From: Arthrobacter alpinus
GTDB taxonomy: Bacteria; Actinomycetota; Actinomycetes; Actinomycetales; Micrococcaceae
Assembly: GCF_001294625.1 (NCBI RefSeq)
Contig: NZ_CP012677.1
Coordinates: 3,162,001 to 3,226,000 of the forward strand
DNA length: 64,000 nt
Reading direction: 5' to 3'
This document shows, piece by piece, positions 18,517 through 39,122 of the stretch; position 1 is the first letter of the stretch, and each line of letters begins with the position of its first letter. The notes below the pieces were generated by a model, which saw only the letters and a list, made by a program, of their open reading frames with translations, ran no database searches and was not told the DNA's origin. Position numbers and translations under genes: made by a program.

Positions 18517-18620
18517 CGAAAACGGGGCCAACTCGCAAGAACGGGGTATCTTCACCCCGTTCTTGCGAGTTGGCCCCGTTTTCGCCCGTGGCAGTGCGAG
18601 TTGGCCCCGTTTTCGCCCGT
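18517..18620. repeat. 31-bp perfect inverted repeat plus a 26-bp direct copy
   Basis: The left arm 18517-18547 is the exact complement of 18554-18584, with a 6-nt loop. The left arm itself contains AACGGGG twice (18521-18527 and 18540-18546) around a 12-bp core. A 26-bp stretch of the right arm and what follows (18564-18589) is repeated exactly at 18595-18620, ending at the hspR stop codon. It lies between the convergent SNF2 and hspR genes and could serve as a bidirectional terminator; there is no U-tract. Confidence 0.85.
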
Positions 18621-37692: not shown

Positions 37693-37778
37693 GGGTTCCC
37701 GCTGCTGCCCCAACGAAAGGGACGGCGTTTGCACCCCCGCCTTCTGCCTACGCCCCCACCACAACCTTCGCGGTCGGT

Positions 37779-37836
37779 GCGCATGTCTCCGCCTTCTGCG
37801 CATGTCCGGACATGCGCAGAAGGCGGAGACATGCGC
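37779..37836. repeat. 58-bp perfect palindrome (2 x 29 bp, no spacer)
   Basis: Bases 37779-37807 are the exact complement of 37808-37836. Each arm is word-core-word: GCGCATGTC, TCCGCCTTCT, GCGCATGTC. A partial extra core (CCCGCCTTCTGC) lies at about 37736-37747. It sits between the convergent metZ and AbiEi-like genes, 18 bp from the latter's stop codon. The palindrome at 38972-39030 has the same layout and almost the same core. Confidence 0.9.
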
Positions 37837-37854
37837 GATGCCCGCCGGCGGATG

Positions 37855-38862
37855 CTATTTTTGCGGGATTCCGGCTTGGCGGAGCAGCCGTTCAAAGCCG
37901 CGAAGGTTCATCATCTCGTCCCAAGTCCACCGAAAGACCCCTACATTCTGTGCCCGGATCTGGTCCTCGCGGTCCTTTTCCTTCAGGATGCGATTCTCGA
38001 GGGACAGCCCATTACCCCAGTCGGCGCGGAGATACTTGGCGCGGCCGTCAAACTCACCCACACGGCGCTGCTCCTCAAACCAGAAGTCCGTGAAAGCTGG
38101 GCTGCCGTCACGGAGCACAAACTTGTGTTGCAGTTCAGGGGCAACGAAGCCCAGCCGGGCCATCCTGACCCGGCTCAGGGATTCACCCGCGGATCCGGAC
38201 AGCCCGGAGGCGAATTCTATGACGGCCACGGCCCTGTTGCGGGCGGCCTTCGACGTAAGCTGCTCTGCGGCAGCCGTGAGCTCCGCTTTCAGCAGCGGCG
38301 GGCCCTGGGGATGGTCGTTCTTCCAGGAGGGTTCAAAGATGCCACTGGAAACACCCGGCGGCGTGAAGGTGTTCTCCACTTTGCGACGCAGCGGCTCGTG
38401 AAGGCTGGAATCGCAGGCGGCCACCGCACGTTCAAACGTCAGGCTGGCGATCAACTGCATGGTTGTGGTCAGCTTGTCCGTTAGCAGCAGTTCCCCGCAT
38501 TGGACCACGCCCTCGGTCACGGACCCAATATGACAGGTGACATCGTCATGGCTGCGGCCGCCTGTCGCCGACTCAGTTATGCAGTGAAGACTCTCCTCGG
38601 GTCTCCCGACAAGCCACAACCCCCAAACGAGTGCTGCCGTGGCATGGCAAAAAACTGGAGGCAGCTTCGACCGTATGTGATATGCCGCGGCCCGCAGGCC
38701 GTATTGGGATGGCTGATCCATGGCCTTCCACTCGACGGCGTCAGCGTAGACTGCCCGACGGACTTTGACCAGCTTGCCCTTATTTTTCAGTTTGGCCAGG
38801 TCCCGGGCATCACGGCCCAGCAATTCCATGTCTTCGGGAAGAATCAGGCGTGGTGGTTTCAT
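37855..38862 (-). CDS. AbiEi-like protein with a PD-(D/E)xK nuclease-like C-terminus
   Basis: This 335-residue protein starts at ATG 38862 (MKPPRLILPED). Residues 15-100 resemble the AbiEi antitoxin N-terminal wHTH region (LKNKGKLVKVRRAVYA; FCHATAALVWGLWLVGRP). The C-terminus looks like the DUF559/Vsr-like nuclease fold: Glu227 in SAGESLSRVRM, then VGEFDGRAKY (Glu270, Asp272, Lys276), EKDREDQIRAQNVGVFRWTW. A linker joins the two. No AbiEii-type toxin lies beside it: the neighbours are metZ and a MurA gene. It is bracketed by two related long palindromes. Function is unknown; a DNA-acting regulator or nuclease linked to these palindromes is possible. Confidence 0.75.
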   Translation of the reverse strand: MKPPRLILPEDMELLGRDARDLAKLKNKGKLVKVRRAVYADAVEWKAMDQPSQYGLRAAAYHIRSKLPPVFCHATAALVWGLWLVGRPEESLHCITESATGGRSHDDVTCHIGSVTEGVVQCGELLLTDKLTTTMQLIASLTFERAVAACDSSLHEPLRRKVENTFTPPGVSSGIFEPSWKNDHPQGPPLLKAELTAAAEQLTSKAARNRAVAVIEFASGLSGSAGESLSRVRMARLGFVAPELQHKFVLRDGSPAFTDFWFEEQRRVGEFDGRAKYLRADWGNGLSLENRILKEKDREDQIRAQNVGVFRWTWDEMMNLRGFERLLRQAGIPQK

Positions 38863-38971
38863 GGAATCAACCGTTCCAGCGTCTCCGACAGGATGTAAGG
38901 GTCCCATGGGAAATTGTGGATAACCTCGAACGGTTATCCACAGGCGAATCAGATCTCCGGCGCCTGTCGCC

Positions 38972-39030
38972 GCGTACGTCCCCGCCTTCTGCGTACGTCC
39001 GTACGTGCGCAGAAGGCGTGAACATACGCG
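38972..39030. repeat. Imperfect palindrome related to the one at 37779
   Basis: The left arm is GCGTACGTC (38972-38980), core CCCGCCTTCT (38981-38990), GCGTACGTC (38991-38999). The right arm 39002-39029 is its complement with about five mismatches. The core differs from the 37779 element at one base, whereas the flanking words differ. It is 110 bp upstream of the AbiEi-like gene. Confidence 0.85.
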
Positions 39031-39062
39031 GCGGGCGCAGGGAGCTGGGACGGGCGCACGAA

Positions 39063-39122
39063 AAAGTACGACGGCGGCCGGTGACCCTTTGAATCAAGGA
39101 TCACCTGCCGCCGTCGTACTTT
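39063..39122 (-). terminator. Terminator hairpin after the MurA gene
   Basis: AAAGTACGACGGCGGC (39063-39078) is exactly complementary to 39107-39122, and the stem continues with two mismatches for 9 more bases. On the minus strand a run of T (complement of AAAAA, 39061-39065) follows the stem, as in an intrinsic terminator for the gene ending at 39129. Confidence 0.85.

Follow-up and report, generated by a model that had tools for sequence, protein, structure and literature searches.

Paired palindromes around an AbiEi-like nuclease gene of Arthrobacter alpinus: a probable mobile cassette

Why should a single gene be framed by two long palindromes of the same design? The question is raised by a 64,000-nucleotide stretch of the Arthrobacter alpinus genome (contig NZ_CP012677.1, positions 3,162,001 to 3,226,000; the window), in which two long palindromes bracket one gene encoding a 335-amino-acid AbiEi-like protein. 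An earlier note, made from the sequence alone, had proposed a palindrome-linked cassette, a gene whose product recognises the palindromes, or an addiction-like unit. The last found no support, as the cassette holds one gene. The first two are supported by paired palindromes, by matching ends and by words that vary with the protein, and the feature is probably a self-contained mobile cassette with palindromic ends, encoding a protein that recognises these same palindromes. Comparison brought out the anatomy of the cassette, the grammar of its palindromes, their covariation with the protein, the polymorphism of its sites and the protein fold. Genomes and loci are cited by our G and L numbers, G000 being A. 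alpinus.

Anatomy of the cassette and its protein

The arm of the 3'-side palindrome reads GCGCATGTC-TCCGCCTTCT-GCGCATGTCC and that of the 5'-side palindrome GCGTACGTC-CCCGCCTTCT-GCGTACGTCC, a word-core-word arrangement in both. The core is common to the two ends (TCCGCCTTCT and CCCGCCTTCT, with a 1-base difference), whereas the outer words differ, GCGCATGTC on the 3' side and GCGTACGTC on the 5' side. The word GCGCATGTC occurs twice per arm at 19-bp spacing in the 3'-side palindrome, which lies at a distance of 22 bp from where the coding match ends; GCGTACGTC occurs twice at the same spacing in the better-conserved arm of its partner. Across the whole genome (4.05 Mb, single contig), the pattern CGCCTTCT-N(8-36)-AGAAGGCG was found at these two palindromes only, and the reversed control pattern gave 0 matches. 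Sequence and whole-genome search thus confirm the related palindromes that the earlier note had described, with cores one base apart and nothing but the AbiEi-like gene between them. The cassette measures about 1.25 kb and consists of a palindrome, DnaA-box-like site(s), one gene and a second palindrome (Table 1). A 400-kb sample of the same genome contained 7 long palindromes, and a clear word repeat at 19 bp was seen in none.

Table 1. Features of the cassette and its surroundings in the window
Feature	Position	Strand	Description
3'-side terminal palindrome	37779-37836	.	58 bp, 29 perfect pairs
5'-side terminal palindrome	38968-39033	.	66 bp, 31-nt arms, 87% complementary, 4-nt centre
Gene, 335 amino acids	37855-38862	-	AbiEi-like part and Vsr / I-Bth0305I-like nuclease domain (predicted)
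DnaA-box-like TGTGGATAA	38915-38923	+	in gene orientation TTATCCACA, -61 from start codon
Second DnaA-box-like word TTATCCACA	38934-38942	+	inverted relative to first
Isolated core copy CCGCCTTCTGC	37737-37747	+	just outside cassette

Residues ~1-219 of the protein are AbiEi-like, with the winged helix and second domain of an AbiEi-type antitoxin fold in the structure model, and residues ~220-335 resemble the Vsr / I-Bth0305I nucleases. By model and fold match, the protein is predicted to be an AbiEi-type protein fused to a nuclease domain with a Vsr-type catalytic fold and conserved acidic residues. Four residues that had been assigned to a PD-(D/E)xK-like domain (E227, E270, D272 and K276) are invariant across 21 aligned sequences, as is D259; fold comparison upheld both the AbiEi and the PD-(D/E)xK assignments and places the nuclease in the Vsr / I-Bth0305I type. 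AbiEi_4 was the sole Pfam domain in 21/21 of the aligned sequences (E up to 0.1), and the same scan found no HUH tyrosine (Y1) transposase domain. The PADLOC AbiEi models matched weakly (E 4.7e-4), and NCBIfam gave no match. Two matches from a PDB sequence search (E 0.026 and 0.055) were taken as chance. The cassette, with its one gene, contains no AbiEii nucleotidyltransferase-type toxin partner.

The flanking convergent genes are presumably metZ and murA, judged by their protein sequences. The isolated core beyond the 3'-side palindrome is perhaps a decayed extra palindrome arm. A hairpin at 39063-39122 (I4) was considered as a further member of the family and rejected: it has no word period, and many relatives have a comparable palindrome after murA. 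We read it as the native murA terminator, outside the cassette. An Rfam search gave 27 matches up to E 1, all under gathering scores and mostly to microRNA hairpin models.

Recurrence in relatives and grammar of the palindromes

Homologues were found in all 23 genomes of the genus, A. alpinus included, some as pieces only. A scan of a wider collection matched 176 stretches, of which 99 encoded relatives; the best 80 were kept and gave 79 loci (19 same-genus) that reach Microbacteriaceae, Nocardioides and Geodermatophilus. The earlier note had named the flanks of homologues as the place to look, and same-genus homologues do have paired palindromes. At a strict threshold, 27/30 same-genus loci had at least one long flanking palindrome and 16/30 had one on each side, compared with 22/60 and 11/60 of the more distant loci (the 60 include one own-genome paralogue, and L083 and L109 were dropped from this count). 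Control windows at the same loci held such a palindrome in 3/900 cases only (1/450 at 330 bp and 2/450 at 250 bp), which excludes a chance origin of the flanking palindromes.

Within the genus the geometry is steady, with one palindrome mostly ~15-30 bp past the coding match and the other mostly ~95-135 bp before it. Many palindromes start with an A-run and end with a T-run. Such a layout could also belong to an orphan AbiEi-type autoregulator, with the upstream palindrome as operator, the downstream one as a strong bidirectional terminator, an unrelated role for the nuclease and no mobility of its own. There is precedent in AbiEi and Rv2827c, which are described in PMC7319586 as autoregulators whose own promoters contain the repeated inverted 23-bp sites to which they bind; the 5' palindrome lies at about -170 to -95 before the start, the 3' one follows closely on the coding match, and the A- and T-runs resemble terminators. 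However, autoregulation leaves unexplained why the 3' palindrome shares the words of the 5' one, why same-word palindromes occur elsewhere, and why lone palindromes replace the cassette at sites A and C and inverted copies exist (see below). We consider it unlikely.

Three loci of the survey deserve separate mention. L005 (G000:C1:2126843-2127736) is an own-genome paralogue, 34% identical, bracketed by a matched palindrome pair of its own. L004 / L006 (G000:C1:2167008-2167689) is a broken family copy at site B of the A. alpinus genome, with one palindrome of another word left upstream. L049 (NZ_JADHDY010000006.1) is titled Sporosarcina beigongshangi; the locus is Arthrobacter-like and the entry is probably mislabelled.

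A looser threshold yielded 98 palindromes from 92 loci (both sides at 34, one side at 30, none at 28); the 98 include the murA terminator taken as the L003 5' palindrome, which was put right for the covariation test. The mean self-match of their arms peaked at 5.93 for offset 19, no other offset from 8 to 30 exceeding 2.48, and 19 was the best offset in 62/98. An arm pattern drawn from Microbacteriaceae-type loci, with its spacer left free from 2 to 14, was searched in seven genomes that hold such loci and matched 21, 25, 5, 20, 18, 4 and 10 times, the reversed pattern 0 times. The spacer was 7, giving the 19-bp period, in all but one of the arm matches listed. The central hexamer GTAGAC (either strand) was exact in 14/50 same-genus cassette palindromes; in 200 shuffles the mean was 0.2 and the largest value 3. 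Related palindromes are not independent in this count, and the window pair lacks the hexamer.

The words go with the protein. Palindromes of one locus were 0.82 alike (21 loci) versus 0.49 between loci (420 ordered pairs), and 1.0% of the between-locus pairs reached the within-locus median. Word similarity tracked protein identity with a Spearman coefficient of 0.71, the largest of 500 permutations being 0.32; residues 49-130 alone gave 0.69 and the nuclease part 0.60 (L036 and L054, in which no arms were found, were left out). Since shared ancestry contributes, this sequence-based covariation lends support to recognition of the words by the protein and is not decisive.

The site upstream of the gene also recurs. 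The word TTATCCACA resembles a DnaA box. It or its complement lay within 130 bp upstream at 29/93 loci (24/32 same-genus and 5/61 others), with 0 occurrences in 794,320 bp of flanks. Its TCCACA part stood at -75 to -45 in 29/31 same-genus loci and 10/60 others; when any position within 130 bp and both strands were allowed, it was present in 30/31 and 31/60, respectively, against a background of 4.5% of 15,000 windows. The site may link the cassette to replication.

Occupied, empty and inverted sites, and palindromes without a gene

Four chromosomal sites were read in the 23 genomes, and the cassette was found in either orientation, was missing, or had a lone palindrome in its place. Sites with and without it, a comparison the earlier note had called for, thus both exist. 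At the metZ-murA site the cassette was absent in 22/22 relatives. The L048 cassette of G012 was likewise absent from 22/22 other genomes; 21 of them contained both its flanks, separated by 16 to 914 nt, and the stretch of G014 that was examined did not show the downstream flank. In G000 the 32 nt between the two stop codons at this site correspond to the stretch left of the G012 insert, and the insert therefore runs from palindrome to palindrome, 1279 bp in all. No target-site duplication was visible at this one resolved insertion; elsewhere the flanks were too diverged.

At site C the cassette of G010 and G002 has one orientation, and that of G006, G020, G007 (broken), G015 (decayed) and G017 (one flank only, contig end) has the opposite one. 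In G021, G016 and G001 the site is occupied by a lone 19-bp-period palindrome without a gene, that of G001 having the same word as G001's own site-B cassette. The remaining 13 genomes show no clear palindrome or cassette of this type, although the G009 palindrome might be one. Site A holds the cassette in G001, G004, G005, G007, G013 and G022, a lone GCGCCC-word palindrome in G010, G012 (placed by its downstream flank only) and G021, and neither in 14 genomes. Other palindromes occur at the site in several of these 14, and a decayed trace may be present in G000. Lone palindromes where relatives hold the cassette are compatible with cutting of the site and copying into it (homing). Inverted terminal repeats together with presence and absence at one site, by which insertion sequences in general are recognised, are both found here.

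In the protein tree, the window protein groups with 5/6 site-A proteins (100/99). Its closest relatives sit at site A, and the metZ-murA copy is best read as a derived insertion. Movement must be rare, because 25/31 tree proteins lie at sites A, B or C. An apparent duplication in G005, with two cassettes and identical palindromes, was discarded: the first and last 8.4 kb of G005:C1 overlap at 99.88%, and an unclosed circular assembly mimics the duplication. The same intergenic gaps of relatives also contained long palindromes and half-units built differently (L161, L141, L145, L303 and L306), which may belong to further repeat families.

The palindromes might instead serve as decoys or self-recognition sites in the control of an endonuclease directed against invading DNA. 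AbiE systems act against phages according to PMC3985639, and the weak PADLOC match agrees with such a role. However, the cassette has no partner gene, and word turnover, inversions and lone palindromes speak against it. The immediate neighbours of the cassette, presumably metZ and murA, look housekeeping, in a neighbourhood that was not scanned for defence genes. A defence nuclease therefore seems improbable.

Palindromes of the cassette type also occur without the gene. GCGCCC-word palindromes were matched in 13/23 genomes (reversed control matched in G011, G018 and G019) and TGCCGC-word palindromes in 7/23 (reversed control matched in G001). Of twelve GCGCCC-word places in G007, two are the termini of its site-A cassette, and the overlapping contig ends inflate the count for G005. 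The TGCCGC-word arm is typical in five genomes (G001, G002, G005, G008 and G022), and the matches in G016 and G021 look different. Four of the five have a same-word cassette (L034, L039, L024 and L033) and the fifth has a gene fragment beside one palindrome. In a 400-kb sample of G024, 5/10 long palindromes carried a GGGGTCTCGGCG-type word, and the 19-bp repeat was clear in two of these five. The core of the window cassette has no dispersed palindromic copy in its genome.

Lone palindromes, and the unrelated palindromes in the same gaps of relatives, could suggest that repetitive extragenic palindromic (REP)-like or terminator palindromes were spread by other enzymes, with the gene a passenger between two copies. 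Against this, the core occurs in the window genome at this gene only, the words follow the protein, and every genome with typical TGCCGC-word arms holds a same-word cassette or a fragment of the gene. We regard such a host-driven origin as very improbable.

Elsewhere in the window, a gene-less 68-bp palindrome at 18517-18584, with AACGGGG twice per arm at 19-bp spacing, lies between convergent genes and is followed by a further half-arm. It has one sister in the genome, at 3658303, and the same pattern was unmatched in 22 relatives.

A possible mechanism and comparison with known systems

If the product recognises its own palindromes, the AbiEi part would read the words and the nuclease domain would cut or nick the palindrome, perhaps near the centre. 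The cassette would then be inserted by repair or copying off a template that already bears it. A centre cut would leave two like half-sites, and because both ends are the same palindrome the cassette could enter or flip in either orientation. Recombination between cassette ends would leave a lone palindrome, and lone palindromes would serve as landing sites and remain as scars. Cutting and copying of this kind would explain the lone palindromes, the inversions and the lack of further target duplication.

This account has its difficulties. The earlier note had held that its proposal would be refuted if homologues in most genomes lacked flanking palindromes or if the same palindromes were scattered equally at 3' ends of unrelated genes. 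Neither is the case within the genus, where palindromes flank 27/30 loci and, in the A. alpinus genome, the core flanks only this gene. Further out both apply in part: 38/60 distant loci have no palindrome at the strict threshold, and same-word palindromes lie at other places in Microbacteriaceae-type genomes. The mechanism also does not account for how the cassette first reached sites without a palindrome, such as the L048 site, and a transposition step would be needed.

It is possible, if short of probable, that the cassettes form a new class of selfish DNA in Actinomycetota, in which an AbiEi-Vsr nuclease recognises and cuts a four-word, 19-bp-periodic palindrome and the cassette is copied into cut palindromes in either orientation (palindrome homing). 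Such elements would also spread gene-less REP-like palindromes, have a DnaA-type link to replication and diversify in word specificity together with the protein. If so, families of long intergenic palindromes in Actinomycetota would be accounted for, a set of orphan AbiEi-like genes, which a weak domain match would assign to toxin-antitoxin systems, would gain a function, and dozens of natural protein-word pairs would become available for reading a DNA recognition code. We found no description of palindrome-flanked AbiEi-like nuclease genes in the accessible portion of the open-licence PubMed Central literature.

The movement of REP palindromes is attributed to HUH enzymes. A protein unrelated to these, combining AbiEi and Vsr-type nuclease parts, appears to have reached a REP-like life-style with a DNA grammar of its own. 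The likeness to REP-associated tyrosine transposases (RAYTs), which the earlier note had pointed out while stating that this is not a known transposase, holds in several respects: as in the REPtrons and TIRtrons of the IS200/IS605 group, a single nuclease gene is bounded by palindromes, gene-less copies are dispersed in some genomes, and sequence families are matched to the protein. However, RAYTs have a catalytic tyrosine and an HUH domain and cut single-stranded REP DNA (PMC3733652). The cassette protein has no HUH domain in Pfam, the feature that defines a RAYT. REPs measure 20-40 bp, whereas the cassette palindromes are mostly ~56-90 bp with a 19-bp word period. Unlike the type IV AbiE toxin-antitoxin systems (AbiEi, Rv2827c), the cassette has one gene without AbiEii, an added nuclease domain and palindromes on both sides. 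Unlike the genes of I-Bth0305I and Vsr, the cassette gene was not seen in an intron or intein, and its presumed site is the two palindromes around it. Tn7 TnsA and other PD-(D/E)xK transposition nucleases match in broad fold only and, unlike them, the cassette has no partner transposase.
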